Below are positions 1-27,720 of a DNA stretch of 33,292 bases, in pieces. The notes under the pieces are model-generated. The model searched no databases. It had not been told where the DNA came from and saw only the letters and a list, made by a program, of their open reading frames with translations. Position numbers and translations under genes: made by a program. Numbering within the stretch: the stretch's first letter is position 1; every line of letters starts with the position of its first letter. The stretch is from a virus: positions 1 through 33,292 of IMG/VR virus record IMGVR_UViG_3300020469_000146. One strand, given 5' to 3'.

Positions 1-1322
1 TTCTCATTAGGATTATCATTACCTCTTGCAAGGTTACGCATCTTTGATTTCTTTTGTGCTGCCTTATGTGCTGACTTATCTATCTCAAAACTTTCTTTTT
101 TCATTTTCTTTTTGTCAAACTTTTTACCTACAGCACCACCGATTCTTTCACCGACTTCACCACCAGCAACTCCAGTAGCAATAGCACCGACTCCTCCCAA
201 TGGAACACCTGCTGCACCACCAGCAAGTCCACCAGCAAGTCCACCTACAACTTTTCCTATCTTCTCACCCCTTCCTGCTTCCTTCTTTTGTATTGCATTA
301 CTTACCCCTCTTGCAGCACCTGACATTCCACCTTGTGCTGCTCTACCACCTGTCTTTCCACCTGCTTTGATTCCTGCTCTTACTACACCCTTCTTGACTC
401 TATTTTTAAGAAGTTCCTTTCCACCCTGCTTTACAACAGTACTAGCAACTTCATATACTACTTCTTCTTTTTGCTCTTCTTTTTTCTTTCCCATTTTCAT
501 TAGACTATCTACACCTTTGGAAACTGCCAATCCAGCAGCCACTGGTCCTGCAGCATTCTTTACAAATTTACCAGCTTTAGCAATAGCTTTGATTGGTTTG
601 TTTATATTTTTTGCAGTTTTATTCATCGCATCTAAACCAGGCTTTGCTGCAGCATTAGGTTTCAATTTTCCAGATCTTACGTTTGGATTATTAGATGACT
701 CTGGAGGGGGAACAAACTTATTCCATTGATTTTGAATCGGATTACCAGTATCTTTGAGTGGCACTTTAGCTGGTGCTTTTTCTACCAATTCATTTCTCCA
801 ATCAGAGTAACTTTCCTTCATTTTCTTTTTCCTTGGACTTTCAGTTGATACGTATGTTGGTTTCGCAGCACCAGATTTGGATTGTTGACCAGGATCTGCT
901 GCTTTCTTTCTTCTTGATGCAGAATCACGTTCTGCTTTAGACATGCTTGCACGTTTAGATGATGAGACACACTTAGGTGTTCCTTCACCTGGTTCATCAC
1001 TTGCACAAGTTCCACCTGTTTTAACATTCACCCATCCAGGTTTACCATCTTTAGATTTAGATCCCTTGAACCATTTATGTAAAGAACCTTCAGACATCCC
1101 GCCACCATTTCCGCCACCGTTTCCGCCACCGTTTCCACCATTACCATTACCATTACCATTACCATTACCACCATTACCATTGCCATTCTTTTTGCCATTA
1201 CTGTCATCATCATCTTTTTCATTACGTAAATATCCACCATAACCAATGCGATAACCCTTTGGAATTGGTTTGCATTTTTTATCAGTTTGACAATAATAGT
1301 ATCCAGATTTACACTTTTTCAT
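1..1322 (-). CDS. Modular Cys-rich / DUF5872-like / glycine-zipper protein, 3' end outside window
   Basis: Incomplete gene: the frame is open from ATG at 1322 to base 1, giving 440 codons with no stop. Visible parts in order: a short Cys-rich segment (C4, C11, C17, residues 1-32); an acidic DDDD stretch; an Asn-Gly/Gly-rich linker (about 46-75); a Trp/Cys/basic domain (about 80-145, with WF at 84-85, C106, C118 and an RRKK run) that resembles DUF5872 proteins of marine phages; a motif SYSDWRNEL (171-179); a Lys/Ala-rich region; and a glycine-zipper stretch (about 355-405) flanked by Lys clusters. The start is chosen because it overlaps the gp16 stop by 14 bases, typical of this operon. A role in the virion or head core is inference from position only. 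No terminase Walker motifs are present, so this is not gp17 although it follows gp16. The DUF assignment is from memory of the family. Confidence 0.8.
   Translation of the reverse strand, partial: MKKCKSGYYYCQTDKKCKPIPKGYRIGYGGYLRNEKDDDDSNGKKNGNGNGGNGNGNGNGNGGNGGGNGGGNGGGMSEGSLHKWFKGSKSKDGKPGWVNVKTGGTCASDEPGEGTPKCVSSSKRASMSKAERDSASRRKKAADPGQQSKSGAAKPTYVSTESPRKKKMKESYSDWRNELVEKAPAKVPLKDTGNPIQNQWNKFVPPPESSNNPNVRSGKLKPNAAAKPGLDAMNKTAKNINKPIKAIAKAGKFVKNAAGPVAAGLAVSKGVDSLMKMGKKKEEQKEEVVYEVASTVVKQGGKELLKNRVKKGVVRAGIKAGGKTGGRAAQGGMSGAARGVSNAIQKKEAGRGEKIGKVVGGLAGGLAGGAAGVPLGGVGAIATGVAGGEVGERIGGAVGKKFDKKKMKKESFEIDKSAHKAAQKKSKMRNLARGNDNPNE
1099..1196 (-). repeat. Tandem 12-mer and 6-mer repeats coding an Asn/Gly linker
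   Basis: Inside the left-end gene there are about three copies of a 12-base unit (ccgccaccgttt on the plus strand, 1100-1135) followed by a run of the 6-base unit ccatta (1138-1185). On the coding strand these give GGNG and NG repeats. Units are multiples of three, so copy-number change would lengthen or shorten the linker without a frameshift. This is directly visible; instability is inferred. Confidence 0.85.
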
Positions 1323-1764
1323 TCTTTGGATTAGATCCCTCTTTATTATTTAGAAAACCTTTTTTCAGTATCTTTGATAATTCTGAAGTAGACCCAACAA
1401 ATAAAGCATTATTTGTAACATTATTTGTAGTTTTATTATTATCTTCATCAACTTCTTTTACTTTCTTCTGTAAGTCCATAAGTTTATCAGTTGTGTCTGC
1501 CACAGACTTAATTAACTGACCTGCAACCTCATATGCTCTTGGACTTGCTGTTTCACCAGCAACCTCCATAATACCATTGATTGCTTCTTGCCCTTTCTCA
1601 ATTAATGAATATAAATTACCTCTTGTATAATCATAATCTTTTCCTACATCTTGCCCTTCAACCTTTTTAATTTGATTTTTCTTTTTAGAAACAACATCCT
1701 CTGGTGTTGGAATAATTTCGGACTTTACATTTAAAGCCTCATCAATAGGATCATAATTAGTCAT
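1309..1764 (-). CDS. 16: Small terminase subunit gp16
   Basis: This 151-residue protein matches the T4-like small terminase (T4 gp16 is 164 residues), which forms a ring that stimulates the large terminase during DNA packaging. Visible features are a variable N-terminus with a basic KKK stretch, the central motif DYDYTRGNLYSLIEKGQEAI (residues about 43-62) typical of marine T4-like gp16, a helical coiled-coil stretch with AYEVAGQLIKSV, and a C-terminal NNALFVGSTSEL segment that is conserved in these phages. The start overlaps the gp15 stop by one base (TAATG). The 3' end overlaps the next gene by 14 bases. Position after gp13-gp14-gp15 supports the call. What is odd is that gp17 does not follow. 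Confidence 0.9.
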   Translation of the reverse strand: MTNYDPIDEALNVKSEIIPTPEDVVSKKKNQIKKVEGQDVGKDYDYTRGNLYSLIEKGQEAINGIMEVAGETASPRAYEVAGQLIKSVADTTDKLMDLQKKVKEVDEDNNKTTNNVTNNALFVGSTSELSKILKKGFLNNKEGSNPKNEKV

Positions 1765-2561
1765 TAGATATCAGTTTGCCTTGTAGGACTATAAGTTTTA
1801 GAATCTGAGAAAATTGCTGTAGTTTCATTAAATCCAAAATCATCATCAGGACCAGCATCAGCAGGTTTTGGAGTAACTGTATATCTCATCTCACGTTTTG
1901 CATTTTGAGTATCAGTATCTGTAGCATAATCAATCTGAACTTTTTTGATAAGACCTGATGTAGATTCTGCAACAGGACCAAATAGATATGTTTTTGCGGT
2001 AAATCCTAACGTATATATTAGTGCTCTTCGTGTAGAAAAATCACCTTCATAATCATCCTGAAAATTAATACTATCTAAAACTATTGGTATATCTCTTTTC
2101 TCTCCAATTGATTTGACTAAATCAACTGTCAAATTAAATGACGGTTGAAAATATGGTAAAATTTGTTCAATGATTTGTAGAGCATCATCGTTCAATTTTG
2201 CAAGTATGTTTAACTCAAACCCAATGTTATATGGAACAGGCATGAAAACTTTCTTTACATTGTTTCCATCAGATGCCTTAAATGTTTGTGTGACACCACT
2301 TTTTCTTGATGGATCATAAGAAACATTATTCATCTCAAATGACATTCGAGGAAGAGTAATTCCAACTGGTTTATTTAAATCTGCTTGTTGTTCAAGTCTT
2401 GCAAGAAACTTTTGAGAAGGTCCGTATGCCAAAGGAACTTTTAATTCACTATAAGTATTACCTGCACTATCATCATGACGAATACTAATAGCATTAAAAA
2501 GTGTTCCAAAAGTAACAATTGTCTTTCTAATTATTTCGTGATAGTAATAGGTTCCTAACAT
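1764..2561 (-). CDS. 15: Tail sheath stabiliser / tail completion protein gp15
   Basis: The protein has 265 residues (T4 gp15 is 272). In T4, gp15 forms the terminator ring that caps the tail tube and sheath and joins the tail to the neck. The N-terminus MLGTYYYHEIIRKTIVTFGT is the characteristic start of gp15 in marine T4-like phages, followed by a segment on interaction with the sheath (FNAISIRH). Further signs are PVPYNIGFEL near residue 110-120 and a C-terminal region rich in Asp and Thr. The start codon overlaps the gp14 stop by one base (TAATG), so the two are probably translationally coupled. Gene order 13-14-15-16 is the T4 order, which makes the identification secure. Confidence 0.92.
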   Translation of the reverse strand: MLGTYYYHEIIRKTIVTFGTLFNAISIRHDDSAGNTYSELKVPLAYGPSQKFLARLEQQADLNKPVGITLPRMSFEMNNVSYDPSRKSGVTQTFKASDGNNVKKVFMPVPYNIGFELNILAKLNDDALQIIEQILPYFQPSFNLTVDLVKSIGEKRDIPIVLDSINFQDDYEGDFSTRRALIYTLGFTAKTYLFGPVAESTSGLIKKVQIDYATDTDTQNAKREMRYTVTPKPADAGPDDDFGFNETTAIFSDSKTYSPTRQTDI

Positions 2562-3991
2562 TAAAATGTACCAAATGGATTATTTTCTGAGAAATCAATA
2601 ATTGCATCAGCTTCTGTTTCGATTTCATCACTTTTATCATATTTATCAGCAAATTCTGCAGACTCAATAAAATCAACAGTATAACTTGCTGATGATTCAG
2701 ATCCAACTATTATATCACCTGCAACAAAAGTTCCATTTGTTGTACCCAGTTTTAATATATTTGTAGTCACATTCCAAGACTTGACTCTTGCGGTTGCACT
2801 AGATTTTGAACCTGTTACAAGTTCATTAAACTGATAAGTTCCAATACCTGTAACAACAGGTGGAGAGGAAATTGTTGCGATTCCAGTTCCACTAGTATAT
2901 CCAATACCAGCATCTGAAATAAGAACTTGATTGACAGTATTACCAACACTAACTAAAACTCTTCCTGTAGCAGTTCCAACTCCAGATGTGGGAGTTGTAA
3001 AGAATAGATTTGGTGCTGTTGGATACCCATCTCCACCTGATGTAATTATAACATTTCCAATACCAGCATCATTTGTAGTAATTAACGCAGTAGCTGCAGC
3101 ACCTACACCATAAGATGTACTTCCAACTCCTAAAACTGTTGATGCAGCACTGACAATTGTTACAGAAGGAGTTATCGTATATCCAGCACCAGGATTTACA
3201 ATTAGTATTTCTTTAACTGAATTAACACCATTTATTGATGTTGTAATTGCAACAGCAGTTGCATTTGTTCCTCCAGTTGGTGCAGTTCCTATTGCAACAG
3301 TTGGTGTTTTTGTATAGTCATATCCATCTTCATTTAAGAATATTTTTCTAACATATCCAGTTGCTGTTGACACACCTAAAGTTGCTGTTGAACCAATTGA
3401 TATGAGTTGAAGTGACGTAATATATCCTTGATCAACAAGAGCATCATCAATTTCACCTGTTGTTGTGCTAAGTTGATTCCATCCACCCATCTCATCTTCA
3501 AGTTCAAAGAGTTCACAACGAAGTTCATAAACATAATTTTTACCTAATTGATAAAATGGTTTTTCATGTTCTACAAATTTTATCTCAAAAATTCTTCTAC
3601 CTAGTGGGAAGTATATTAAATCTCCCTCACTTGGTCTACTTGTAACTTCAATTTCCCCTTCTGGTAATCCAACTAAAAATGGTGAGATAAAATCTTCAAA
3701 CCTTTCTTTTGATATTGTAACTATGAGTTCATCTTTTAAACTCATTCCAAATTTAGTCATAATATCACCAGCACCACCATATCCATCAAAGGTGTTTATA
3801 TATGCTTCAATTGCAAAATTATCAGCAAATCTTGATGATTGTATTTCAGTAAAAATACTATCTTTATTTACAATTCTTCGAGGTAGATACATTACCTCAA
3901 CACCATAAATTTTTAACTGTTCATTAATAAGATCTTGAACAAGTCTTTGCTCACTTTGTGATCCTTGTAAAAAGAAGGGATTTAATGCCAT
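2561..3991 (-). CDS. 14: Neck protein gp14 with a beta-repeat insertion
   Basis: The first about 190 residues carry the gp14 hallmark: MALNPFFLQGSQSEQRLVQD, then INTFDGYGGAGDIMTKFG (about 65-82), and LGRRIFEIKFVEHEKPFYQLG (partly, 130-150). gp14 joins gp13 in the neck between head and tail. At 476 residues it is far longer than T4 gp14 (256). The extra length is explained by about 180 residues (205-385) of Gly/Thr/Val-rich repeats with DGYDYTKTP, GAGYTITP, GDGYPTAP and GIGYTSG, each heading a beta-strand segment, followed by a small beta part and an acidic C-terminal tail that resumes gp14-like sequence (SEFADK...NPFGTF type). The start is six bases after the gp13 stop. The family call is sure; the function of the insertion is unknown. 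Confidence 0.92.
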   Translation of the reverse strand: MALNPFFLQGSQSEQRLVQDLINEQLKIYGVEVMYLPRRIVNKDSIFTEIQSSRFADNFAIEAYINTFDGYGGAGDIMTKFGMSLKDELIVTISKERFEDFISPFLVGLPEGEIEVTSRPSEGDLIYFPLGRRIFEIKFVEHEKPFYQLGKNYVYELRCELFELEDEMGGWNQLSTTTGEIDDALVDQGYITSLQLISIGSTATLGVSTATGYVRKIFLNEDGYDYTKTPTVAIGTAPTGGTNATAVAITTSINGVNSVKEILIVNPGAGYTITPSVTIVSAASTVLGVGSTSYGVGAAATALITTNDAGIGNVIITSGGDGYPTAPNLFFTTPTSGVGTATGRVLVSVGNTVNQVLISDAGIGYTSGTGIATISSPPVVTGIGTYQFNELVTGSKSSATARVKSWNVTTNILKLGTTNGTFVAGDIIVGSESSASYTVDFIESAEFADKYDKSDEIETEADAIIDFSENNPFGTF

Positions 3992-3996
3992 TATAA

Positions 3997-4842
3997 TTAA
4001 CCTATAAAATCAAGAGGAGGCATCTCATACTCTTTCACAATTCTCTCTCTTATTATATCCATTTCTTTTTCTGCATCATCATATATTTGCCTTCCATTCA
4101 ATTCCAATCCACCTGGCAATTTGACACCCTGAAACTTTATAAGATTTTGTCCCCACTGCCTTTTTATAAGAGTAGTGAGATATAATTTAACAAATGGATC
4201 ATTATATATCTGTACGAATGAATCAGGATCTAAAGCACGATAGCAATCAAGAACAATAAACGTACCTTCTTGCTGTGCACTCCAATCAATATCAAGATAT
4301 AATCTATCTTGTCTTTTATTAAATCTTATTTGTTTGTCTGTTGTCAATAGAAAATCTATATCTTCCAAATATCTTTTTGTCATGGAATATTGTAAAAGAT
4401 TTACTGCATTAAAATAATATAAGTCATTTAAAAATAACTGATATTTAATACTAAACATTCCACCAGATATTGTACTTGTATCAAATTTAAATATCTTTTC
4501 TACACCAATCACTGAATCTGGAACTTGAATGAAGTTAGATGTTTCATAAAAATTTGAAGTGATAGTTCCCAAACCACTTACATTTGTAGAATTTCCAGTA
4601 GTGGTAACAATTCCAACTCCCGATGTCCCCGATGCCTTCCCTCTATCAATATCGTCCTGAGTAATTTTATATTTTAAATACATTCTCTCAACACCTTCAT
4701 AATTTCTTTCCTGAAAGTATTGAATAGTATCATCTACCAAATCGTCTACTTGATCATCATCTACGTTTACTTCTAAAACTGGCGCACCTAATTTTCGAAA
4801 ACAGTAGTCAATAAGTCCTTGTCTAGTACTTGGTTTAGCCAT
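3997..4842 (-). CDS. 13: Neck protein gp13
   Basis: This 281-residue protein (T4 gp13 is 309) begins MAKPSTRQGLIDYCFRKLGA and continues with VNVDDDQVDDLVDDTIQYF, the typical opening of gp13 in marine T4-like phages. It forms the neck ring with gp14 that seals the packaged head and receives the tail. Residues about 60-100 carry a short Gly/Thr/Ser-rich insert (SGVGIVTTTG). The C-terminus ends with PPLDFIG, as commonly seen in the family. The start overlaps the preceding stop by one base (TAATG) and has a strong GGAGGT ribosome site eight bases upstream, inside the last codons of the previous gene. Confidence 0.92.
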   Translation of the reverse strand: MAKPSTRQGLIDYCFRKLGAPVLEVNVDDDQVDDLVDDTIQYFQERNYEGVERMYLKYKITQDDIDRGKASGTSGVGIVTTTGNSTNVSGLGTITSNFYETSNFIQVPDSVIGVEKIFKFDTSTISGGMFSIKYQLFLNDLYYFNAVNLLQYSMTKRYLEDIDFLLTTDKQIRFNKRQDRLYLDIDWSAQQEGTFIVLDCYRALDPDSFVQIYNDPFVKLYLTTLIKRQWGQNLIKFQGVKLPGGLELNGRQIYDDAEKEMDIIRERIVKEYEMPPLDFIG

Positions 4843-15102: not shown

Positions 15103-18100
15103 TTAAATTTCTGGAATTATAGACCCAGTATTTTCGAATGTTTTTGGACCTTCAGTTCTTTTTAAAGTAGGATACGTGGTTATTCCAATGGACTCTATCA
15201 GACCAATAGTGAATCCAGTTACTCCTATTGATACTGCGTTTGATCCTCTAGAGAAACCACTTATTCTACCAACAGAATACTTTCCAACAGCAGATCCACT
15301 TGAAATCATACCAGATACATTAGTATCTGACTTAATAAGACAAGTAATTACTCCAACACCACCTGTTAGATCTTGGAAAGCAGCTATACTGTAAATACTA
15401 TCAGCAAAAGAAGTTCCTATACCAACAGAGTTGGTATTATTACCATGAGTATCTATTCCTATAACTCCAGATCCAACACGAGTATCAAAAATATAAATTG
15501 GGTTTCCAACTGATATTGGATTAAAATCAGATAAAGAAGAATTACGTTTAATAGTAAATTTGATTCCTAATTTAGATGATAATATCGTTGTTCCAATCCC
15601 TGTTATAGATCCTGTATTATTTTGAATTGATAAACTACCACCTGGTGTAGGTGTTGTAAGATTTTCAAACGTATTGGAATATGTAACAGGACTCGATATT
15701 AAAACTTTAGGTGCTATTGTATATCCCAATCCAGGATTAACCACAGATATAGTAGTAACTGTTCCACCAGCACCAATAGTTGCAGTTGCAGTTGCAGTCG
15801 TTCCTATTCCTACACCAATACCACTAGATGGTACTGATAATTTAACAATAGGGGCAGTTGCATATCCAGAACCAAAGTTAGAGGTACTAAATCCTGTTAC
15901 AGTTCCTGCTGTAGAAACAGTAGCAGTTGCTCCTGCATTTATAAAATTAAATTGATCTTTCTTTAAAATTGACAATCCTAAAGATGTTGTTCCTGATTCG
16001 TAATTAAATAAATCCATGCTATCAACAAATATAGTAGTATCAGTAGTTGTAACATCACCAATTATTTTTGCAGTAGGCGTAATTCTTGGTTCAATACTCT
16101 GTCTTTTTTTAGAAACAATCGTTTTATTGATTATCTTATCCTCTTTCTGTTTTATCAAACTAATTGGTCTTGATACAGAACTTATACCAACATCCTGATA
16201 TGCATTAGTTTCTAATTTTTGTGAAGTATTTAAATTAAATACTGTTCTTTTATTCTGTTCTTTTACATTTTTTAATCTAGATAATTTAACTTCATCACCC
16301 ACTTCTATAGTTATTTTTTCTTTATCTCTAACTATAGAATCATCATTTGTAGTTCCTTTATAGAATAGTATTGATATATCATCTTCTGGAATAGGTGCCT
16401 CACTAAAACTAATTATATTTCCACCAATTATAGAATATGATGTTGCTGGATCTTGAATAACTCCGTTTACAATAACTAAGAATAAATTTTCAAGTTTAAC
16501 ATTTTGGTTGAGAGTGTTTCCATCTCTTTCAAAACTTATAAGTTGATTATTTAAAATTATTGAGAAGTCAGTTCGAGAACTATTTTGAAGATCTTTGATG
16601 GAGTCGATATAATCAAAATCACCAAATTGCCACAATGCAAATGAATCATTAAATATTTTGTCTACAGTTAATGTAGATCTCTCAACAAGTTGACCTACCC
16701 CCTTTGCAGTTACTAATCCAACAGCTTCTATAACATCACCTCTTTTAAATCCAAATCCTTTATTGACAATCTCATATTCTGTTATTTCAAATAAAGTTGA
16801 TCCAATTCCTACAGAAGGTTTTGGAATAGCATTGACTCTAAAGTCAGTTCCAGTATCTGTTGTTGCTCCAAATCCAAGTCTTGATACACCAGTGACAGAC
16901 AAATTAGAATATGATGGTTCTGAAACCACTACTTTGGGATCTTTATAACTTGTTCCTGCAGATACAATTGAAAATGCTAATGTTCCACCAACACCTACTG
17001 AAGCACTTATACTAGCACCACTACCAACGTTGACTCCAACATTTATACTGAATATATCATCAGTTAATTTTGTAACTGCTGTGCTAACACCAGCCACTGG
17101 ATCTGTAGATCTAGGATATGGGTGAACAGTTTGGAAATTATCTTTTGAACATGAGAAAAACATGCTGCCAGTTGTAATTCCAACACTACTCGAATTAGTT
17201 AATCCATGATTAGGAGCTGTTATCTGTAATTCTCCAGTGAATGAATTGTAAGAAGCATCTATTGGTGTTAAATTACCTGTAATTGAATTTGCATTTGCAG
17301 ATATAAATCGATGCTCATATCCAACATCTATTACTGTTACTCCAATTGATACTATATCATTATATCCAGATCCTACAGTTAATCTTGGGAAGAACGGATA
17401 TACTTTTCCTGAACCTTGATAATTGAATGATGTTGGTTGTGCACCGACTCTTACACTAAAAACATTTGTCGATGCTATCGAAATTATTTCATACTCATTA
17501 CTTTTCAAAGTAAGACTAGGTGAGAATACAAAACCCTGAAGTATTGCAAAATCATTTGAATGTATAAATTTATGTTCATTGACAGTTCTAATTGTCATGA
17601 TACCAGTCACATTATTATAAGTAGCAGTCTGAACTCCTAAATTACTTCCACTATAAGATGTGCCTACAATACTTGTTATTTGACCTGAAGCATTGGTAAG
17701 TGCTTTAACATTTGCACCAACTAGAGGAGCATAACCTAATCCATTAATTGTGTTTCCAATTGAAACAGGAACACCACCTCTAGGTAGTTCATTTGTGTTA
17801 ATGTTATTTGATGTGAATACAGATCCATCATTGGATGTGATTCCAGTAAATATAACTGTTGTTACACCAGTAGCACCACTACCACTTTCTATTATTTTAA
17901 AATTCTTATTGGGGTTGAAAAATGTTGATGGTGATTGGAATACTCCATTTACAAATAGTATTCCACTACCACCCGTGCTTCCTATTCCAATAGTATTAGA
18001 TCCACCAACTGTTACTGTAAAATCAGATTTTATTCCTGTAAATTGATCGGATACATCATCATAGATTACATTTGTACTATAATCATTTCTCAAGTAAACT

Positions 18101-21100
18101 CTCCCAGAGAATTTAGTTGTTGTTTTCAATAAATCATTTATAGTTCTTGAATTAGAGAGATCACCTCTTGGAGGGTTAGTAAAGAATAAATCTCTTCCAT
18201 TAATATTATAAGATCCTCTAAACACAGTAACTGTTGTTCCATCAGAGTGTGTAGCTCCTGCACTTCCAACAAAAGATCTTGTAACTTCAACTGTATTGAA
18301 TGTCCCTGAAGATCCAACAGGACCCCCACCAGTTGTTGCGAATCCAACATTAGTTATCTCGACAAATTCATCATCTATTTTTAACAGGTCACTTGATGTT
18401 AGTGTTGATATTCCACTTAAATGAATTATAGTGGTTGTTAAACCAACAGAACCTGATAAATTATGACTTAGAGTATGAGTGATATTACTTCTTATTAAAG
18501 GATATTGACCCACCTCATCAAGTGAAACTAAAATTTTCTCGTTTGCTTTGGACATATTCAATTCATGAACATTCCCCTCACCTAAACTTATAAATGAAAC
18601 GGCTGCACCAGCTCTTGTAGTTGATATAAAGAAAGAATCATTCGTAACATTTTTAGCAAAAACTGTTGTTGGTAATTGACTGATTGTTGATATTCCACCA
18701 GATTTAATTTCAAATTGCATAGGTGTGGAACCAACACCAACAAATGAACTATTAGGTTTATATACTAATTGTTCATTTTCTCTAAAGAAATGATTATCAA
18801 TTGAAAACTGACCAGTTACTGAATTCAAACCAACTGAATCAGGATTAAAAACTTTTCCAAAAATTGGTATAGAATTAACTTTTGGTGTGAATTGTGTCCT
18901 TTCTATTCTATCTCCCTCTAGAGAGTTATATAATTTGACAGAATTACTTTCAGTTATTACACCGTAGATATGATCATCTGGATCATTTACAGTATCCATT
19001 TTTGTATATAAACAATGATTTAATGCAACCACTGTTGATATTCCTGATGAATTGTCTGGATGAAACTCAAGTATAAAATTAGATCCAGAAAGAATTGCAC
19101 CAAAAGTTCCTAATCCAGAGGAAGGATCATATTCTGATGTATAATCTTTTGTTACTGATAATGACCCAGACTGTTGAGCATACGCATCTGTTCCATCGTG
19201 CAGGAATAAAACTTCATGAACAGCTTTAGATGATCCTATGCTGACTTCTACAACTGACTTAACACTATTGAAAAGATTTGAATCTAAATTGAGTATAGTA
19301 GATACTCCAACATTTCTTGTTGATATTCCTGTATATTTTGAAGTTCTTTCTGATCCATCGTTCTGACCAGGTGATTTAAATCTAAAAGTTCCATCAGAAA
19401 CACCTGTTGTTCCTATCCCTATTACTCTTGATTTCAATTTTAAAGTACTTAATTCGTTATTTTGATAACTAAGTATTAAATTATTATTCGATATACTTGA
19501 TGTTATGATACCCAGTTTATTTGTAGAAAATTCATTTTTCTGTGTATTAAAGTAAGCTTCTGTAAGGAAAGTATCTGTACCAGAGTGAGATACAAAACTT
19601 TCTATCAAATTCATCTCTTTAGTTACATCATCAATTACATGTATTGTTGCATATAAAGATTCAAATTCATTAACTGGAACACTAATAATATTTGTTGTTA
19701 TCCCTGCAGGGCATAGTTGGATACCTGAAGTTAAATTTATTGGACCTATAGAAGTTGTTCCTACACCAGTTGATGTTGTATTAAATTGAGATGAGAATAT
19801 TTTTAAATCATAATCAACTTCATTTCCTGGTATTGGATTTGTCTTTGGTATGAATCTTAAAGTATTTTCTGTTGTAGAAGTTTCATTTTTATTGAGAAGA
19901 AAATCAGCAAAAACATCATCACTTGTATTTGGACCATTTCCAGAATTTATTAAATTAGATTTTTCAACTAGTACATTTTGATTTCCATTACTTAGTAAAA
20001 GTAGGTTTGATATTTGAATCTTATTTGAAGAAGAACTACTACTTTTAGTAACTATTATAAGATCATTGAACAATTCGGTAAGGACAGAATCAGAAAAATT
20101 AAACAGTTCTAAAAAATTATCAGGATTTCCTTGTAAATTTGAAAATTCATTGGAAATATCATCCATTATCAAAACATCATTAGTTTTACATGAAACATAA
20201 TCAGATAATCTTAAATTATCAAAACTTATAAATCTACTAATATTACCATTTATATCAGTATCTCTGGCAAAATCCAAATTTCTTATTTCATCAACTCTTT
20301 TTTGCTCTGTTAAATCTACAACCACATTTAAATAACTACTGGATCCTATGCTCAAATTGGAAGTTGAAGATATACCTGTATCAGCAAAATTTTTCATTCC
20401 ACTGGTATGGAGTAAATTATTTACTGGTGTTCTCAAACTTTTCCATTGAATAGGACTTTGAACAGAATATGACATGTTTTGATAATAGTCATTATCAGGT
20501 ATTACTTGAAAATCTTCATTTAATTTACCTATATTATCACTCCAAGAAAGATTTTTTAATATTGAAAAATCAGTTTTTAATCTTCCTTTATTTTTCTTTA
20601 TACTGGATATATTACATTGACTTCCAGAATTTTCTCCAACTAATTTATCACCTATATTTAAAACATTTGTTCCAAAGATTTTTAATTTACCAATATTACT
20701 TCTAACAACTTTAGAGTTAGTCTTGGTATCATTTATTACTAATTTTTCATCAACATCAAATGTTGATTGGTTTTGGGTTACAAAGAAAGAAGGATAATCA
20801 GACTCATTAATTACATTTGCAAATGTATCTACAACAGTTTTAGCTATACCAGTGCTTGATGTAAGATTACTTACATCAATTGTTACTTGACCCTGTGTAG
20901 TTACATTGGGTTCATATTTTGAAACTGTTAGTAACTTATATCCATAGTCTTTAGAGTTAAACCCTGATCCACCAATGCTAACTCTTTCAATTCCCTCAAT
21001 AAAAACTTTATCATTTACAGAAAAAGGATCTTCAGCAAATACTGGGTTGGGTGTAGATATTCTACATGTAAAGATACCTGAATTATTTGATATTACGTCT

Positions 21101-24100
21101 GTTATGACGATACCATTACTATTGTTAATAGTTCTTATTGTCACTACTTTTTCTGGTAAACCAATTGGTCTTTGAGCAATTTCAACACTTGAAATACTAT
21201 TTTCCGACATTATTGGTTCTAAGAAACCACTTTTTATCTGTTCACCTGTTTCTGTATTAACAACTATGATATTAGGGGTATCAATAAAATCAGAACCACC
21301 ATTCGTTACACTAACAATTCCTAAAGTATTTGTATTGCTTATATTCACAGTGTCTGCTATAAGACTTTCAGGTTCTAGAGTTTTATCAGAGGAATACTCA
21401 AAACCTTCATTTATTATTCTAACTTGTTCAATGTTTCCAATTGTATTTGATGTGGGAATTAAAACGGATTCTTTTCCAATAGAAGTTCCTCCAACTCCAA
21501 TAAAGTTAGGAATTTTTTTATAGTTAGATCCACCAGAAATAATATTAACAGAGTTTATAGAACCTTTTGCTGTTTTAGAACTGGTATTATATTTCAATAC
21601 ATCACAATCTACTGAATTGTAAGATAGTTTTTCTGGATTATCTTTTATAAAAACTTTAAAACTAGTATCACTAACTTTAGTAATCTGATACGTATCTTCA
21701 TAAAGACTATCAACAAAAGATATTTTTGAATAATCTTTTACATCATTATCAGTGGTACTAATTGTTCCTGATTTTTCTAAATTGTAAAACAAACTATTTG
21801 GGATGCTACTACCATATCCTATGGTTAAAGCAGCTCCTACAGACCCATTTGATCCAGATGTAGAAATACCAAATATTGTGGACACACCAACAGATATGTA
21901 ATCATTTCTAAATTCTTGATCATAATATATTTTAAAATCATATCCAGTTAGTGAAGAATCTGAAAGATTGAAAATTAAATCATTATTTTTAATTACTTCT
22001 ACTTTTGGATTAATTAAAGATATAGATTGTGTACTACCTCCTGTGGATCCTATACCAGTTATTTTTGGAATATCTCTCTTTACATCTAATTGAGTTTCAC
22101 ATAATTTGATAGCATCATCGTCAAATTTGTATACGAAATAGTTTTTATTTTCTAATCCCTCTGGTAAAAAATTAGATTCATATTTAATTTTATCACCTGT
22201 TTTAAATCCATGATTTATAATCCTAATAGAATTATTTGAAGTATTGATCGATGAAGAATTAAAACCAACAGGATTTAATAAAATATTTCCTGTTACTAAA
22301 TCTCTTGATACTTTTATCTCAGTTGATGTTCCAATTCCTACTGATAAATTAGGTTCAACTCGTAGTGTTATTGAATCTCCAGTTTCTAACTCATGAGATT
22401 CTGTTGTAGTTACAGTTGTTTCTATTCTCTCAGTTTTTGCAGTGACTTCATCAAAAACTGTTTCAAATAGATATCTATCACGTAAATCTTCACTTATAGA
22501 TGGTACAGTAATAAAGTGAACTTCAGAAAAATTAGTTCCTATTCCAGTTTTAATTCCAATTGAATTTATATTTTTGTTAACAGCAAATAAAGTTTCTGGT
22601 AAATTAAATGTGGAAATTCCTTTATCCGTAGATATTGCTATATTTTGCCCTGCACCTCCAGTTGGTGTTGAGAATTTAATTCTCTGATTTGTTTTAAAAG
22701 GATGATTTTCAATATAAATTTGTTTTACTGGAACATTTCTTGTAATATTTTGACCAGCAAAAGAAAATGTTAATGCATTCTCAGATCCATCATCAGTTCC
22801 TAATCCAACTGTTTGTGATGGATTAAAGAATACTTTTTTATTTAAATTAGTTTCAAAATATGGTAATGACTTGTTAATTGTAAATTTATTAGATAGATAA
22901 AGAATATTTGTTCCTTCTGGGTGAGTTGCAGCATAACCTGAGTCAGTTCCTCTTTGAACAGTGATAACATTTAAATTTTTGTAGATGTTTAATATCTTTA
23001 AAGTCTCAGTTCCAATACCTATACTACTACCAGCAGAAACAAAATTAGGTATGTCAGTAACAAATATTTCAGTTGTAAAACCTGCAGATGGTGATGGAGA
23101 TATTGTAGAAATTGTAGTCGAAGAAAATGTAGTTACGCCAATTTTAAATGAATTGTTTAATTGTGATATATCTGTTGATAATCCAGATATTTTAACAAAA
23201 TCATTATTTTTAAAATCGTGATTAGATTCAGTAAAAACTGATATTTCTTTTTCTGACCATGTAACAACTGATCCAGTTTTTACACCAACCTGAGTGTTTA
23301 TCGTAGATATAGGTTTTCCATCTATTGATGATACTACTGATATTAAACCATTCCCATCTGTTTCATTATTATCAAAATTTAAAAATTCATTTACCTTATA
23401 ATTCAATCCACCAGATATTATATCAAATCCTGTTACAGATCCAGAAGAAACTGATGTTATCTCTATTTTTTGATCTTGTATTTCGTTAGTTTCAACTAAA
23501 AAATCATTATTAGCAAAATTATCTGCAACTTTATATGGAAAAGTATTTCTAATTAAGTTATTGGAGTTAAAATCAAAATTAGTTTGTAAGTTGTTATCTA
23601 CATTATATTGAATTGATTTTGATCTATATGAATTACCGATAAAATAAGGGAAAGAGGGTGTGTTCGAACCACCACTAACCGTCGCATGATATACATAAGA
23701 ACCGTTTGGAAATTCTTGTGTAATTTCAAATCTACCATTATGTTCATCTAAATCACCAATTGAATTATCAAATTTATAATCTCCAATAAAGAAACCATCA
23801 AAAAATCCACTTGGTCTATCGACAATATTAGAAGTATCTAAAACATAACTTGATATTAGTTTTTTAACTTTATTATCATCAGTCTCTTGATATTTTTCAG
23901 GATTTTCATATGCAAAAGGACCATATATTGGATTCCCATCATAAGCCCATCCTATTAAACCTGAAGGATTATTAACATTTTCATTGAATAGTGTTATATC
24001 ATATCCATTAAAAGAATATTTTAATTTATTCTCAGTATCTTCTAAAAGTTGATAATTATCTTCACCACTATACTTATTAATTTCTAATGATCTTACTTCA

Positions 24101-27100
24101 GTGTCAAATATTGAGTTTTGGCCAGATGGTTTAACATTTATAGACGTATCTGTAGAATATCCGATACCAGCATTTACGACAATTACAGTCGATATACCTG
24201 CATTTACAACAACTGGTCTTAATCTGGCACCAGAACCTTTACCTGTTGGATCTATAATATCAAGATCAGGAATTGAAAAATACTCCTTTCCGACAGACTC
24301 AACACTAACAGAATTAATTCTTCCATTTACTATATTGGGTTTTACTGAAGCATTTTTTCCAATTTTTAACGTTACAATTGGTTTTTTATGATTATTAATA
24401 ATTGTTGAACCATAACCTGTGCCAGATTCATAAAGATATGTTTGCTCTATTGATCCTTTAACTATTGGTGTAAAATCAATTGTTCTTTCTACATACTCTA
24501 CAACTGTTGCTGCTGTGGTTCCTATACCAATGGTGGTAAACTCAGATGTAACTTTAATATCTGGATATTTAAATTCCTGAAATCCAGATCCTTTTGAATT
24601 TAAAATAACTTTTTTTCTTCTTTCATAATTTGATATGTCAGTGGCACCTATTCCAACATCACTTAAACTAAAAGAATCGTTATCATTGAATAAAATATAA
24701 TAATTCTTACTCGTATCTAATCCAGAAATATTTCCACTATATTCGATAAGATCACCATCTTTGAATCCATGATTAACAAAATTTATCGTATCGTTTGATG
24801 TAGAAATTCCAGTTGGTTTAACTATTAGTTTTCTGTTTGTATATCCACTACCACCATCAATAACTTTTACATCTAGAAGAGTATTTCGAAGACCGACTTT
24901 AAATATTTGATCTCCACCAGCATTGTTACCATTGAAAGTTATCGTTCCAATTCCAGCATTTAAATCAGATATTGATTCATATAATTCAATAGCTGTACTA
25001 TTAATAAATTTTGTGTAATATGTTGATTGATTTATTAAAACTGAATTTCCAACACCAACTCCAATAGAATCTTGAAAATTAGAATCATATATAACTGCAT
25101 CTCCTGTTCTGAAACTATGATCTGATTTGAAAATTATTCTAGATTCTGGACTACTTGTGGTAGATGTGTTTATTCCACCACCCTGTGTGGTTGGTCTAGA
25201 ATCAAATAATTCCTGTCTGAACCTTTCACCTACTACTGGTTCTAATATACAACCAGTTCCATTTCCACCAGTTACTCCAATAGAAATAACTTTATCTACA
25301 TCAAAATTTTGAGAGTCAACGAAGACATCTATAATTTTACCACTCACTACTGGCTGAACTAAAGCTGTAGATCCAACTCCAGATGATATTGTTATATTGG
25401 GTAAATTAATTACATCAAAATTGTCTCCACCATTTAGGACATTAACTTCTTTTAATGGTCCAAAATACATTTTGTCACTTGATTTATAATTAGATATTTC
25501 AACACCATTAATCAGCATGCCAGTTTCACCGAAAGGTGTCTCTTCATTATTTCCATCAGATAAATTTTGACTTAATGGAAATTTTTTAATTAATTTTTGT
25601 GCTCCAATTACTCCAGATTTTTGGGAAAATAGAATAAAGTTGTGAACCCCATCATTTAAATCCTTTGAAAAAGTTACGTTTTGACCATCAGCAATTCCTG
25701 AAGGTGATCCAAATAATTTAATACTTTTTTGTCCTGCTAGAACTTCAACAAAATAAGGTCCAGTACTTAACCCAACAAGAGAATCACCATCAGAAAAACT
25801 ATAGAAAACTTTATCACCAGTTTTAAATGAAACTTCATTGGCAAAATTTATTATTGAAAAACTTTGTTGATCATCAGTAGATCCTGTAAGACTTCCTCCA
25901 TTAGGATCTGATAAGTTAAGAGAAATATCTTCAACACTTACATTAATTTGTTTTGAAAATTCAGATAAATTATTAACAAAAGATGGTAATGAATTGGAAG
26001 TTACATATGCATTTTCATTTTGAATGTATACATTTTGAACGTCAGATGTGATTACACCATTCCCATACTCAAGTGGTGTTCCAGAACTATTAGCTTTGTT
26101 TAATTTTTTTCTAATTTTATAATTACCGCTACTTAGAAAAACAAAACTTGAATTATTTAATGTAATAGAATTACTACTATCAACAATTTGATTTACAATG
26201 GCTCCAGTTTCTAATATTTCATTTGAACCTCGATCAACTATATCAATAACATCACCCCTTTTTAAACTTGATCTATCAATCTCACTATCTAGATAAATTA
26301 TACCAGATTCTACCTTTGTTACGAAATATGATGAACTCGTATTATAAATCCATGAATTACAAAATATTTCTTTATATGATTTATTTTGTTCGGGATTTTT
26401 TACTTTATCACCAATACTTTTAACAGAAATTATTTCTCCCTCTTCTACATCAACATTTCCATCTTGTTCAAACTCAGATAATACTCCTGTTAATCTCAGT
26501 ACAACTTTATTATCTAAGTTTCCATCTTCAAATCCAAAATAAGTAATATCAGATCTAATGTTTTGAATAGGAACTATAGGACTAGTAACTCCTGAACAAT
26601 TTAAAAATTGATTTATTGTTTTATCTGTATAAGTTATTGTGTTTACACCAGATAGAATAGTTCCTGTTACTCCAAATCCAATTGTAGAATCAACTGTAAT
26701 AACACTAGATCCTATTGACACATTTTCTATTGATTTTGTGTTTGGAACTATTATAAAATCACCTGCAACATCAGAACTTTCATCATATCCAACGAATAGT
26801 CCAATTTTATAATAAGTTGTTATTCCAGACAATCCAGAGTCAACTCTTTCAAAAGGTTCAATTTCAGATATTGATGCGTTAATATTAAGATCAAGGTCAC
26901 TTCTAAAAAGTGTTTGTCCAGTTAGACCTTTCAGTAAAGATTGACCTTGTAATTGTATTGGGTCACCTTCTAAAAGTTCTGCTACACAGACTCTCCTTCT
27001 TACATAACTCGCAAAAGATGGTTTTATTAATCTCTCTTCTAAATTTAATATTTTTGGTGTTATACCATACAAAACATTAAAAAGTATTCTAAATGACTCC

Positions 27101-27720
27101 TCTGTTCCTTTTGTTTGGTATAATGACCTTGCTTCACCTATAAATGTTCCTACATCTAAATTTTCTTTTAATTCTGTCTCTTCTAATCCTGGTAAAAATG
27201 TTTTTTTAAATTTTTTATAAAATTCTTTTAAAAATAAAGAACTTAAATTTTGAATATTAGATAATTCTGCATGATCTGCTGATATTGAAGTGCTAAACAA
27301 CAAATCTTCTTTACTTGAATCAGAATGGTAACTTGTAATACCACTAAATCCACGAATACAACCAGTAAACGTGTTTGTAGTTATACCCGTGTAAGTAATT
27401 ATTTCATCATCAATTTTAAATAGTCCATATTGATTTGGAAATCCTTTTGTAGATGAAACAACAATGTCAGTTGTTGTAGTTGAAATTCCAACTGATAATA
27501 TTGCACTATCTACTATTACTTCAGGTGTTAAATTTTGAACATTTAAATATTGATCTAAATTATCAGATATGTCTGCGGAAGAACCTTGGTATTCTTGAGA
27601 AGTATAATATTGTTTTAAAAAATCAATCGTCAGGGGACTTTCTTCTTGAATAAATTCAGGAAGTTGACTAGATATTACATCTTGTATTTTGACTTTACTT
27701 ACAATACCTGTTTGTATCAT
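15103..27720 (-). CDS. 7: Giant gp7-like baseplate wedge protein with YHYH domain
   Basis: At 4205 residues this is about four times T4 gp7 (1032), which starts wedge assembly by binding gp10, gp8 and gp6. The N-terminal about 255 residues include a conserved helical part (SLFLKEFYKKFKKTFLPGLE at 161-180, GTFIGEARSLYQTKGTEESF at 191-210) seen at the start of gp7-position proteins of marine T4-like phages. A YHYH-type domain is at about 1230-1370 (GWAYDGNPIYGPFAYENP, later YVYHAT). Several module types repeat: GxGY modules (for example about 3927-4010), RGxxG...H modules (about 75-135, 1546-1613, 3090-3173) and HGFxTGD modules (about 625, 862, 980, 1832). The ATG overlaps the gp6 stop (ATGA). 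The gp7 name rests on order between gp6 and gp8 and size; sequence similarity to T4 gp7 cannot be shown here. Confidence 0.85.
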   Translation of the reverse strand: MIQTGIVSKVKIQDVISSQLPEFIQEESPLTIDFLKQYYTSQEYQGSSADISDNLDQYLNVQNLTPEVIVDSAILSVGISTTTTDIVVSSTKGFPNQYGLFKIDDEIITYTGITTNTFTGCIRGFSGITSYHSDSSKEDLLFSTSISADHAELSNIQNLSSLFLKEFYKKFKKTFLPGLEETELKENLDVGTFIGEARSLYQTKGTEESFRILFNVLYGITPKILNLEERLIKPSFASYVRRRVCVAELLEGDPIQLQGQSLLKGLTGQTLFRSDLDLNINASISEIEPFERVDSGLSGITTYYKIGLFVGYDESSDVAGDFIIVPNTKSIENVSIGSSVITVDSTIGFGVTGTILSGVNTITYTDKTINQFLNCSGVTSPIVPIQNIRSDITYFGFEDGNLDNKVVLRLTGVLSEFEQDGNVDVEEGEIISVKSIGDKVKNPEQNKSYKEIFCNSWIYNTSSSYFVTKVESGIIYLDSEIDRSSLKRGDVIDIVDRGSNEILETGAIVNQIVDSSNSITLNNSSFVFLSSGNYKIRKKLNKANSSGTPLEYGNGVITSDVQNVYIQNENAYVTSNSLPSFVNNLSEFSKQINVSVEDISLNLSDPNGGSLTGSTDDQQSFSIINFANEVSFKTGDKVFYSFSDGDSLVGLSTGPYFVEVLAGQKSIKLFGSPSGIADGQNVTFSKDLNDGVHNFILFSQKSGVIGAQKLIKKFPLSQNLSDGNNEETPFGETGMLINGVEISNYKSSDKMYFGPLKEVNVLNGGDNFDVINLPNITISSGVGSTALVQPVVSGKIIDVFVDSQNFDVDKVISIGVTGGNGTGCILEPVVGERFRQELFDSRPTTQGGGINTSTTSSPESRIIFKSDHSFRTGDAVIYDSNFQDSIGVGVGNSVLINQSTYYTKFINSTAIELYESISDLNAGIGTITFNGNNAGGDQIFKVGLRNTLLDVKVIDGGSGYTNRKLIVKPTGISTSNDTINFVNHGFKDGDLIEYSGNISGLDTSKNYYILFNDNDSFSLSDVGIGATDISNYERRKKVILNSKGSGFQEFKYPDIKVTSEFTTIGIGTTAATVVEYVERTIDFTPIVKGSIEQTYLYESGTGYGSTIINNHKKPIVTLKIGKNASVKPNIVNGRINSVSVESVGKEYFSIPDLDIIDPTGKGSGARLRPVVVNAGISTVIVVNAGIGYSTDTSINVKPSGQNSIFDTEVRSLEINKYSGEDNYQLLEDTENKLKYSFNGYDITLFNENVNNPSGLIGWAYDGNPIYGPFAYENPEKYQETDDNKVKKLISSYVLDTSNIVDRPSGFFDGFFIGDYKFDNSIGDLDEHNGRFEITQEFPNGSYVYHATVSGGSNTPSFPYFIGNSYRSKSIQYNVDNNLQTNFDFNSNNLIRNTFPYKVADNFANNDFLVETNEIQDQKIEITSVSSGSVTGFDIISGGLNYKVNEFLNFDNNETDGNGLISVVSSIDGKPISTINTQVGVKTGSVVTWSEKEISVFTESNHDFKNNDFVKISGLSTDISQLNNSFKIGVTTFSSTTISTISPSPSAGFTTEIFVTDIPNFVSAGSSIGIGTETLKILNIYKNLNVITVQRGTDSGYAATHPEGTNILYLSNKFTINKSLPYFETNLNKKVFFNPSQTVGLGTDDGSENALTFSFAGQNITRNVPVKQIYIENHPFKTNQRIKFSTPTGGAGQNIAISTDKGISTFNLPETLFAVNKNINSIGIKTGIGTNFSEVHFITVPSISEDLRDRYLFETVFDEVTAKTERIETTVTTTESHELETGDSITLRVEPNLSVGIGTSTEIKVSRDLVTGNILLNPVGFNSSSINTSNNSIRIINHGFKTGDKIKYESNFLPEGLENKNYFVYKFDDDAIKLCETQLDVKRDIPKITGIGSTGGSTQSISLINPKVEVIKNNDLIFNLSDSSLTGYDFKIYYDQEFRNDYISVGVSTIFGISTSGSNGSVGAALTIGYGSSIPNSLFYNLEKSGTISTTDNDVKDYSKISFVDSLYEDTYQITKVSDTSFKVFIKDNPEKLSYNSVDCDVLKYNTSSKTAKGSINSVNIISGGSNYKKIPNFIGVGGTSIGKESVLIPTSNTIGNIEQVRIINEGFEYSSDKTLEPESLIADTVNISNTNTLGIVSVTNGGSDFIDTPNIIVVNTETGEQIKSGFLEPIMSENSISSVEIAQRPIGLPEKVVTIRTINNSNGIVITDVISNNSGIFTCRISTPNPVFAEDPFSVNDKVFIEGIERVSIGGSGFNSKDYGYKLLTVSKYEPNVTTQGQVTIDVSNLTSSTGIAKTVVDTFANVINESDYPSFFVTQNQSTFDVDEKLVINDTKTNSKVVRSNIGKLKIFGTNVLNIGDKLVGENSGSQCNISSIKKNKGRLKTDFSILKNLSWSDNIGKLNEDFQVIPDNDYYQNMSYSVQSPIQWKSLRTPVNNLLHTSGMKNFADTGISSTSNLSIGSSSYLNVVVDLTEQKRVDEIRNLDFARDTDINGNISRFISFDNLRLSDYVSCKTNDVLIMDDISNEFSNLQGNPDNFLELFNFSDSVLTELFNDLIIVTKSSSSSSNKIQISNLLLLSNGNQNVLVEKSNLINSGNGPNTSDDVFADFLLNKNETSTTENTLRFIPKTNPIPGNEVDYDLKIFSSQFNTTSTGVGTTSIGPINLTSGIQLCPAGITTNIISVPVNEFESLYATIHVIDDVTKEMNLIESFVSHSGTDTFLTEAYFNTQKNEFSTNKLGIITSSISNNNLILSYQNNELSTLKLKSRVIGIGTTGVSDGTFRFKSPGQNDGSERTSKYTGISTRNVGVSTILNLDSNLFNSVKSVVEVSIGSSKAVHEVLFLHDGTDAYAQQSGSLSVTKDYTSEYDPSSGLGTFGAILSGSNFILEFHPDNSSGISTVVALNHCLYTKMDTVNDPDDHIYGVITESNSVKLYNSLEGDRIERTQFTPKVNSIPIFGKVFNPDSVGLNSVTGQFSIDNHFFRENEQLVYKPNSSFVGVGSTPMQFEIKSGGISTISQLPTTVFAKNVTNDSFFISTTRAGAAVSFISLGEGNVHELNMSKANEKILVSLDEVGQYPLIRSNITHTLSHNLSGSVGLTTTIIHLSGISTLTSSDLLKIDDEFVEITNVGFATTGGGPVGSSGTFNTVEVTRSFVGSAGATHSDGTTVTVFRGSYNINGRDLFFTNPPRGDLSNSRTINDLLKTTTKFSGRVYLRNDYSTNVIYDDVSDQFTGIKSDFTVTVGGSNTIGIGSTGGSGILFVNGVFQSPSTFFNPNKNFKIIESGSGATGVTTVIFTGITSNDGSVFTSNNINTNELPRGGVPVSIGNTINGLGYAPLVGANVKALTNASGQITSIVGTSYSGSNLGVQTATYNNVTGIMTIRTVNEHKFIHSNDFAILQGFVFSPSLTLKSNEYEIISIASTNVFSVRVGAQPTSFNYQGSGKVYPFFPRLTVGSGYNDIVSIGVTVIDVGYEHRFISANANSITGNLTPIDASYNSFTGELQITAPNHGLTNSSSVGITTGSMFFSCSKDNFQTVHPYPRSTDPVAGVSTAVTKLTDDIFSINVGVNVGSGASISASVGVGGTLAFSIVSAGTSYKDPKVVVSEPSYSNLSVTGVSRLGFGATTDTGTDFRVNAIPKPSVGIGSTLFEITEYEIVNKGFGFKRGDVIEAVGLVTAKGVGQLVERSTLTVDKIFNDSFALWQFGDFDYIDSIKDLQNSSRTDFSIILNNQLISFERDGNTLNQNVKLENLFLVIVNGVIQDPATSYSIIGGNIISFSEAPIPEDDISILFYKGTTNDDSIVRDKEKITIEVGDEVKLSRLKNVKEQNKRTVFNLNTSQKLETNAYQDVGISSVSRPISLIKQKEDKIINKTIVSKKRQSIEPRITPTAKIIGDVTTTDTTIFVDSMDLFNYESGTTSLGLSILKKDQFNFINAGATATVSTAGTVTGFSTSNFGSGYATAPIVKLSVPSSGIGVGIGTTATATATIGAGGTVTTISVVNPGLGYTIAPKVLISSPVTYSNTFENLTTPTPGGSLSIQNNTGSITGIGTTILSSKLGIKFTIKRNSSLSDFNPISVGNPIYIFDTRVGSGVIGIDTHGNNTNSVGIGTSFADSIYSIAAFQDLTGGVGVITCLIKSDTNVSGMISSGSAVGKYSVGRISGFSRGSNAVSIGVTGFTIGLIESIGITTYPTLKRTEGPKTFENTGSIIPEI

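Follow-up and report, generated by a model that had tools for sequence, protein, structure and literature searches.

What does a T4-like virus encode immediately behind the small terminase gene gp16, at the place where T4 has gp17? The question is raised by one end of the window, i.e. the whole stretch of DNA that was analysed, a linear virus record of 33,292 bases whose end falls inside the gene concerned. This gene, hereafter the cassette gene, is a single open frame of 440 codons on the minus strand (3-1322), with its ATG at 1322 and its 3' part truncated by the contig end. We suggest, with a probability of about one half, that it is the internal-head-protein locus of a marine T4-like phage (Kyanoviridae) in polyprotein form, whose product enters the head via the prohead core and is cleaved there by the prohead protease gp21.

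The cassette gene and its surroundings

In the window, gp13 (3997-4842), gp14, gp15 and gp16 follow the T4 order, with Pfam matches above cut-off for gp14, gp15 and gp16 and a PHROG match for gp13. The top gp16 match listed among named phage records, in a listing that may omit very near ones, is the single-cell record AG-345-L05 (71%, Kyanoviridae). The cassette gene starts within the last codons of gp16, and the overlap of 14 bases described in the first-pass annotation is real. The same spacing of -14 is found in 21 of the 74 relatives whose family gene starts no more than 120 bases from the gp16 stop, and for this group the overlap makes translational coupling to gp16 plausible. The parts of the protein named in that annotation are likewise present: a Cys-rich start (C4, C11, C17), an Asn-Gly stretch, a Trp/Cys/basic domain, the motif SYSDWRNEL (residues 171-179) and two glycine-rich stretches. 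The protein has a pI of 10.1 and a net charge of +48, compared with pI 4.3-5.2 for gp13-gp16, a charge that fits DNA-binding. Its N-terminus reads MKKCKSGYYYC and carries no T4-type targeting sequence (CTS), CTS-like motifs being internal only, which counts against packaging as a head polyprotein. The features are as follows.

3-1322, minus strand: T4-GC119-type cassette gene, an ORF matching phrog_3477 (E 1.6e-54) and phrog_727 (E 2.9e-30), with homologues between gp16 and gp17
1309-1764, minus strand: gp16, small terminase subunit (PF11053, E 5.4e-6; phrog_445, E 1e-53), overlapping the cassette gene by 14 bases according to the spacing survey
1260-1313, minus strand: Cys module CKSGYYYC..KKCKPIP, residues 4-21, also found on its own in AG-345-L05 (23064-23345), where a T4-like targeting sequence precedes it
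1098-1202, minus strand: Asn-Gly/Gly linker, residues 41-75, of variable length among relatives
1089-1097, minus strand: putative prohead-protease site MSE-78|GSLH; of 48 distinct copies of the cassette that follows, 38 have hydrophobic-x-Glu just ahead of them, where shuffles give 2.8
843-1088, minus strand: Trp/Cys/basic cassette, residues 79-160, called DUF5872-like in the first-pass annotation (57-sequence alignment; AlphaFold mean pLDDT 63.5)
813-821, minus strand: putative site MKE-170, by motif only
780-812, minus strand: SYSDWRNELVE, a recurring motif ending in LVE-181, itself a putative protease site (53 non-redundant relatives have 75 such motifs, their shuffles 1.65)
492-551, minus strand: glycine-rich stretch 1, residues 258-277, from the sequence and the alignment of relatives
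450-458, minus strand: putative site VYE-291, by motif only
282-437, minus strand: Lys-rich stretch, residues 296-347, with helices predicted at low confidence
117-257, minus strand: glycine-zipper stretch 2, residues 356-402; the whole glycine-rich block is absent in L006, L010, L098 and L118
3-95, minus strand: start of a further cassette, ESFEIDKSAHKAAQKKSKMRNLARGNDNPNE, residues 410-440, similar by eye to a stretch inside the 984-aa L151 protein

That the cassette gene replaces gp17, as had been proposed, was rejected, since the window merely ends and an intact gp17 comes next in relatives. In locus L006, with a gp16 97% identical to that of the window, the same cassette gene start and a gene of 621 aa, gp17 starts 6 bases past the cassette gene stop; in L009, where the gene has 1010 aa, the distance is 7 bases. 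No terminase family appears among the Pfam and PHROG hits of the window protein (E<=1).

At least one cassette-bearing ORF was found between the terminase genes in 42 of 46 loci with distinct gp16 DNA and both terminase genes present, the exceptions being L013, L053, L087 and L088. Since many of these loci were recruited by the cassette gene itself, the fairer count is that of the gp16-recruited loci alone (L006-L085, the best 80 gp16 matches). Among those with both terminase genes, 18 of 20 have a cassette ORF in between, which in L029 is only 83 aa long; in the two misses, L013 and L053, just 109 and 23 bases separate the gp16 and gp17 matches. The gene also lies between gp16 and gp17 in S-SM2, S-SM1 and ACG-2014f. 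In S-SSM7 the interval holds only an 83-aa ORF with no recognised cassette, and the P-SSM4 copy (P-SSM4_160) and the cassettes of S-CREM2 ORF160 are sited away from the terminase genes. The interval has already been named as a hot-spot (Sullivan et al. 2010, PMC3037559). In the Pelagibacter phage HTVC008M (L088), it contains a phytanoyl-CoA dioxygenase and a tryptophan halogenase and no cassette gene.

Two other genes of the window are of note. The gp14 gene (2561-3991) encodes an enlarged protein of 476 aa, in which the Pfam neck protein match is limited to residues 3-159 and the later part also matches baseplate and other structural PHROGs. A single frame of 4205 aa (15103-27720) is matched almost from end to end by phrog_2885, a baseplate wedge subunit.

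Family and domain identity

The cassette gene had been considered unlike any assigned T4 protein, which is not borne out. Both PHROG matches of the window protein, confined to its first ~180 residues, place it in a known family, whose S-SM2 member is annotated T4-LIKE GC: 119 and matches phrog_727 along its entire length. The family is known (T4-GC119), its PHROGs being annotated with unknown function, and gp17 directly follows in relatives. By tblastn, 316 phage records match the window protein, none of them over 80% of the query, and the 40 matches listed all fall within query residues 2-198. A C-terminal DUF6321 (PF19846) was found in 9 of 10 relatives scanned with Pfam, one of the ten also having DUF192 and another DUF5661; the window gene is truncated before its C-terminus. 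IP families are absent from the Pfam and PHROG scans of the window protein.

The Trp/Cys/basic cassette resembles DUF5872, a phycodnavirus family, only in its Trp, Cys and basic residues. The identity has no Pfam support: neither the window protein nor any of the 57 domain copies has a DUF5872 hit at E<=1, assuming that the model is present in the library. DUF5872 is named in one open-PMC paper, for a haptophyte virus; we keep "DUF5872-like" as a label. The alignment of the 57 sequences has 13 invariant columns, including W7, F8, W20, C29 and C41.

Structure predictions were too weak to interpret, both for this domain (pTM 0.40) and for the whole 440 aa (mean pLDDT 41.7, pTM 0.20, with 385 of 440 residues below 50). 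In the full-length model, strands are placed at the Cys module and helices in the part rich in glycine and Lys, all at low confidence. Neither Foldseek with the domain model nor a profile search of the domain against solved structures (E<=1) had any match in PDB. Such models would neither support nor exclude a polyprotein of the head.

Modular anatomy of relatives

Family members were collected by hand-made motif patterns, giving 124 unique ORFs in the loci, 75 of them complete, and removal of near-duplicates at 70% shared 6-mers reduced these 75 to 53 proteins. The frames stay open over long lengths in the 75 complete genes, and the median pI is 9.8 (n=75). With 12 recognisable cassettes, 33 different cassette orders occur among the 53 proteins. 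In an alignment of ten relatives, blocks are present or absent as units. The Cys/Asn-Gly module, for example, is N-terminal in the window, internal in S-SM2, C-terminal in the 984-aa L151 protein and stand-alone in AG-345-L05. The glycine-rich block of the window comes after SDWRNEL, and the four relatives without it keep the earlier modules; it is an optional insert. The membrane-active role considered in the first-pass annotation would rest only on this block.

Putative prohead-protease sites

The T4 protease gp21 cuts after [LI]xE. In T4, residues 8 and 10 of IPIII are involved in processing, and gp21 itself has LIE-9 (PMC9026906). We counted [LIVMF]xE in the seven residues ahead of each cassette and compared the counts with shuffles; relatedness among the cassette copies makes the counts non-independent, and the shuffles do not remove it. 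Besides the DUF5872-like cassette (38/48 against 2.8), sites precede CWxGY in 45 of 47 copies (8.0 in shuffles) and DUF6321 in 42 of 43 (7.3), its three forms giving 16/17, 17/17 and 9/9 versus 3.1, 2.6 and 1.6. Counts for the rarer cassettes were 12/17 versus 1.1 (DHEY), 2/2 versus 0.3 (FSQxAHC) and 4/8 versus 0.9 (RYCPKC). Counting against the polyprotein reading, there was no upstream excess for KDACY (8/44 versus 5.0), SNYGK (0/6 versus 0.6) and SDWR (8/69 versus 5.4). Allowing a GSG linker, a site is found ahead of KDACY in 46 of 58 copies, an anchor picked after the null result and counted with no shuffle control. The residue two ahead of Glu is L, I, V, M or F, with V and M dominating before the DUF5872-like cassette and M before DHEY.

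Inside the five cassettes tested, taken together, 34 sites were found in 10,935 aa versus 61.8 expected, and in the remainder 469 in 19,812 aa versus 310.9 expected. Internal sites are scarce in three of the five: DUF5872-like (1 versus 15.0 expected), CWxGY (5 versus 16.9) and AWVQSK (1 versus 10.5). VWPSAY is uninformative (0 versus 0.0 expected), and DUF6321 is an exception that likewise counts against the polyprotein reading, with 23 internal sites versus 11.6. In the window protein, the putative sites are MSE-78, MKE-170, LVE-181, VYE-291 and VGE-392.

The internal SDWR motif

Between cassettes there recurs a motif of the pattern [SYF][DN]W[RK]. The 53 proteins contain it 75 times, versus 1.65 in shuffles; 40 of them have it, 32 in at least two copies. 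Its spacing i, i+3, i+6 matches Y4, F7 and E10 of the T4 signal, position 8 being Arg and not Ile. E or D stands three residues past Trp in 73 of the 75 motifs (E 43, D 30), and hydrophobic-x-Glu is found at W+4 to W+6 in 34 and anywhere in W+3 to W+11 in 50. By analogy with T4, we infer that the motif works as a targeting signal. Several observations count against this: F or Y is present three residues ahead of Trp in only 42 of 75 motifs, and 13 of the 53 relatives do not have the SDWR motif, 11 of them having neither it nor a broader CTS-like motif. In S-CREM2, the internal SDWR-type motif is not enriched among detected virion proteins (1/52 versus 2/150, p=0.59). Scanning eight phages for SDWR-like codons at the DNA level proved too unspecific, since the degenerate pattern lets in other codons, and was given up in favour of protein-level scans.

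Targeting sequences and stand-alone cassettes

In T4, the first 10 residues of IPIII suffice as a targeting sequence into the prohead core, with residues 4 and 7 important for targeting and 8 and 10 for processing (PMC9026906). At the T4 locus, ipII and ipIII both begin with MKTYQEFIAE, and a DNA pattern made from this sequence, allowing up to 2 mismatches, finds four T4 places, namely ipI, ipII, ipIII and 61.1. The last of these (AF158101 18966-19130; 54 aa, hypothetical) begins MKTFKEFIKED, near the starts of IPI, IPII and IPIII, and to judge from this start may be an internal head protein that has so far been overlooked.

In five marine phages, the pattern MKx[FYL]xxF[ILVM]xE begins 10 of 1027 ORFs versus 0.014 in shuffled starts; it was written after CTS-like starts had been noticed, and one of those, S-SM2_108, is among the later hits. 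A looser start pattern in the same scan gave 9 versus 0.66 expected. Among the ORFs found is the cytidylyltransferase/NMNAT, which bears this annotation in P-SSM4 and S-SCSM1 and was assigned by start similarity only in S-SM2, S-SM1 and AG-345-L05. The protein has been reported from the virions of S-SM1 (T4-GC190; PMC3037559), S-SCSM1 (PMC9602691) and S-CREM2 (PMC10665884).

In S-CREM2, three ORFs begin with the start pattern, namely the SAM hydrolase, the cytidylyltransferase and ORF13; all three belong to the 52 MS-detected ORFs and none to the 150 others (p=0.016). A further loosened pattern, devised after reading ORF136, adds this MS-detected ORF and one undetected ORF of 55 aa; the test was repeated with MKx[FYL]xxF[ILVM]xE. 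Pooling S-CREM2 with S-SCSM1, the start pattern is found in 4 of 97 detected versus 1 of 354 other ORFs (p=0.0085), where the 45 detected proteins of S-SCSM1 come from its paper, its 249 ORFs were called by us and the labels of two tagged ORFs come from GenBank. The miss is the CTS-tagged S-SCSM1_30, with no virion label in GenBank, and counts against a targeting role. A strict DNA pattern for CTS starts was dropped: it had zero matches in S-CREM2, where the protein pattern did match, because it required Ser or Thr at position 3.

For four cassette types there are stand-alone forms with a CTS-like sequence at one end, one of them identified by weak similarity only. In AG-345-L05, MKEFDKFIEE is followed by the Cys/Asn-Gly module. 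The FSQKAHC cassette stands alone in S-SM2_108, which begins MKTLKQFLKE and adjoins the family gene. The VSKxQQRF cassette is S-SCSM1_93, with a virion label and the tag-like RTFKEFLEYIE at its C-terminus. The weak case is that of phrog_1742-type proteins, which start with MKSFQQFLSES or similar (32-36% identity to a cassette, E 5e-5 at best).

Related sequences were seen elsewhere in these genomes. The C-terminus of gp21 is F-x-x-F-L (e.g. FNDFLNSL, AFEAFLKSL) in S-SM2, P-SSM4, S-SCSM1, AG-345-L05 and S-SM1, where gp21 is annotated in S-SM1 and identified by similarity in the other four; such an end is a possible core-binding tail. The virion-detected SAM hydrolase of S-CREM2 (L226, 3837-5081, minus strand) has the CTS-like start MKDFDSFLEE; it may be packaged in the head and, in the manner of T4 IPI, counter restriction once injected. 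Behind the cytidylyltransferase comes a second cluster of CTS-tagged and cassette genes, both in S-CREM2 (L225, 124608-129235), where ORF154, 155, 156 and 160 are virion-detected, and in P-SSM4 (L004, 152192-156700).

Homologues in virions

The first-pass annotation also suggested a virion partner, and this is supported for homologues, as ORF137 and ORF160 belong to the S-CREM2 virion proteome and S-SCSM1_29 is labelled as a virion protein. Table 3 of PMC10665884 gives 8 unique peptides for ORF136, 4 for ORF137 and 7 for ORF160; the first two are the ORFs that separate gp16 from gp17. By motif and reading, ORF137 ends like DUF6321 proteins. ORF160 is a chain of DUF5872-like, CWxGY and VWPSAY cassettes with predicted sites at E127, E218 and E252, one ahead of each cassette, and has no Pfam family at E<=0.01. 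The coverage of ORF137 was 4.1%, and the preparation also contained gp21 and scaffold (PMC10665884), so that immature heads may have been present. Cassette content (2/52 detected versus 0/150 other ORFs, p=0.065) is not significantly associated with detection, and C-terminal CTS-like ends gave the same counts (2/52 versus 0/150, p=0.065).

In S-SCSM1, 45 virion proteins were identified by MS (PMC9602691), and GenBank labels S-SCSM1_29, _92 and _93 as 'virion protein'. The S-SM2 GC119 bears the note 'similar to Synechococcus phage S-SM1 protein', which is also found on S-SM2 gp13-15, gp18 and gp19 and on S-SSM7 gp20, gp21, gp23 and gp3, and is absent from gp16, gp17 and, in S-SSM7, gp22. Because it sits on those structural proteins and not on gp16 or gp17, the note looks like a mark of detection in S-SM1 virions; we kept it out of the virion evidence.

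Interpretation and alternatives

If the cassette gene is a locus of internal head proteins, translation behind gp16 would yield a string of small, basic, Cys-bearing cassettes as one chain. The chain would enter the prohead core by its CTS-like motifs (typically Y/F-S-D/N-W-R-x-E/D, with SFQQF-type variants), and gp21 would cut between cassettes at the hydrophobic-x-Glu sites. The small basic proteins would then stay among the packaged DNA and be ejected along with it. Family, position in relatives, modularity and site pattern are supported by the present data, and virion detection of homologues by the work of others; the internal location, the role of the motif, cleavage and ejection we infer. 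The jobs of the cassettes, DNA condensation or counter-defence, are guesses and the least certain part.

The main rival is an accessory prohead core (scaffold) protein like T4 gp67, gp68 or gp22, cut by gp21 with its fragments mostly lost and with no job in the next host. It draws on the same motif and site evidence, and the low coverage of ORF137, with gp21 and scaffold in the same preparation, would agree with it. We nevertheless regard it as unlikely, considering that three of the five cassettes are poor in internal sites, that the proteins are strongly basic and that the N-terminal tag is also found on enzymes (cytidylyltransferase, SAM hydrolase), improbable as scaffold. An uncut DNA-binding or packaging partner of terminase, with plain binding domains and with hydrophobic-x-Glu linkers as mere flexible connectors, would agree with the tight spacing after gp16, the basic charge and the adjacent gp17. 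A packaging partner, as also proposed in the first-pass annotation, would rest on the position beside the terminase genes. Homologues and cassettes located elsewhere (P-SSM4_160, S-CREM2 ORF160), and the few bases between gp16 and gp17 in L013 and L053, make this quite unlikely, and it leaves unexplained the excess of sites between cassettes and their overall depletion inside.

The detection or labelling of homologues as virion proteins could equally suit an external or neck/tail-associated protein, perhaps membrane-active through the glycine zipper of the window. This is distinctly improbable, as the glycine-rich block is an optional insert and stand-alone cassettes bear targeting tags like those of internal head proteins. 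The gene could, at last, be mainly a product of the published gp16-gp17 hot-spot, a recombination-prone mosaic with little function of its own, as the 33 orders in 53 proteins might suggest; long open frames in 75 complete genes, invariant residues and virion-detected homologues argue against it, and we hold it to be very improbable.

A wider version of the internal-head-protein reading is offered tentatively, as possible but clearly less probable than the reading itself. The gene would be an exchangeable multi-warhead polyprotein between the terminase genes, whose ejected take-over or counter-defence cassettes are freely swapped, loaded together by internal T4-type signals and cut apart by the protease, the same code loading enzymes (cytidylyltransferase/NMNAT, SAM hydrolase).

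Relation to known systems and significance

T4 IPI, IPII and IPIII are like the cassette proteins in being basic and diverse, with a CTS-type motif and gp21-type sites, the latter putative in the cassette proteins. However, they have one protein per gene and a single N-terminal CTS, whereas the window family has many cassettes per chain and an internal motif. A further parallel is offered by T4 Alt and by the ejection proteins of the giant phage SPN3US, head proteins that the prohead protease processes, in some cases repeatedly, at short x-x-Glu motifs. There the cuts remove propeptides, while in the window family the sites would separate many mature cassettes. The cyanophage proteins known as T4-GC119, phrog_727, phrog_3477 or DUF6321 are the same family by PHROG profile and usually lie between gp16 and gp17; their records say only hypothetical or virion protein, and the papers found do not describe cassettes, sites or targeting motif.

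Open PMC full-text searches, with subscription papers outside their scope, gave no title or abstract describing a cassette polyprotein or a shared targeting code. DUF6321 occurs in no open-PMC paper, and among the matches listed 'capsid targeting sequence' and 'cyanophage' come together in PMC9026906 alone, the latter only in a reference title. What was known before is the family with its genomic position, and that homologues are detected in virions; reading the gene as a polyprotein, and a targeting code that is shared, appear to be new.

Despite the great abundance of T4-like cyanophages, little is known of the proteins inside their heads or of how these are selected. With a readable targeting code, injected proteins could be predicted in many marine phage genomes; such a code would also explain the 'hypothetical' virion proteins of the gp16-gp17 hot-spot. 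If true, a string of cassettes that is loaded into the head and separated there would be a new variation on the theme of the T4 internal head proteins.
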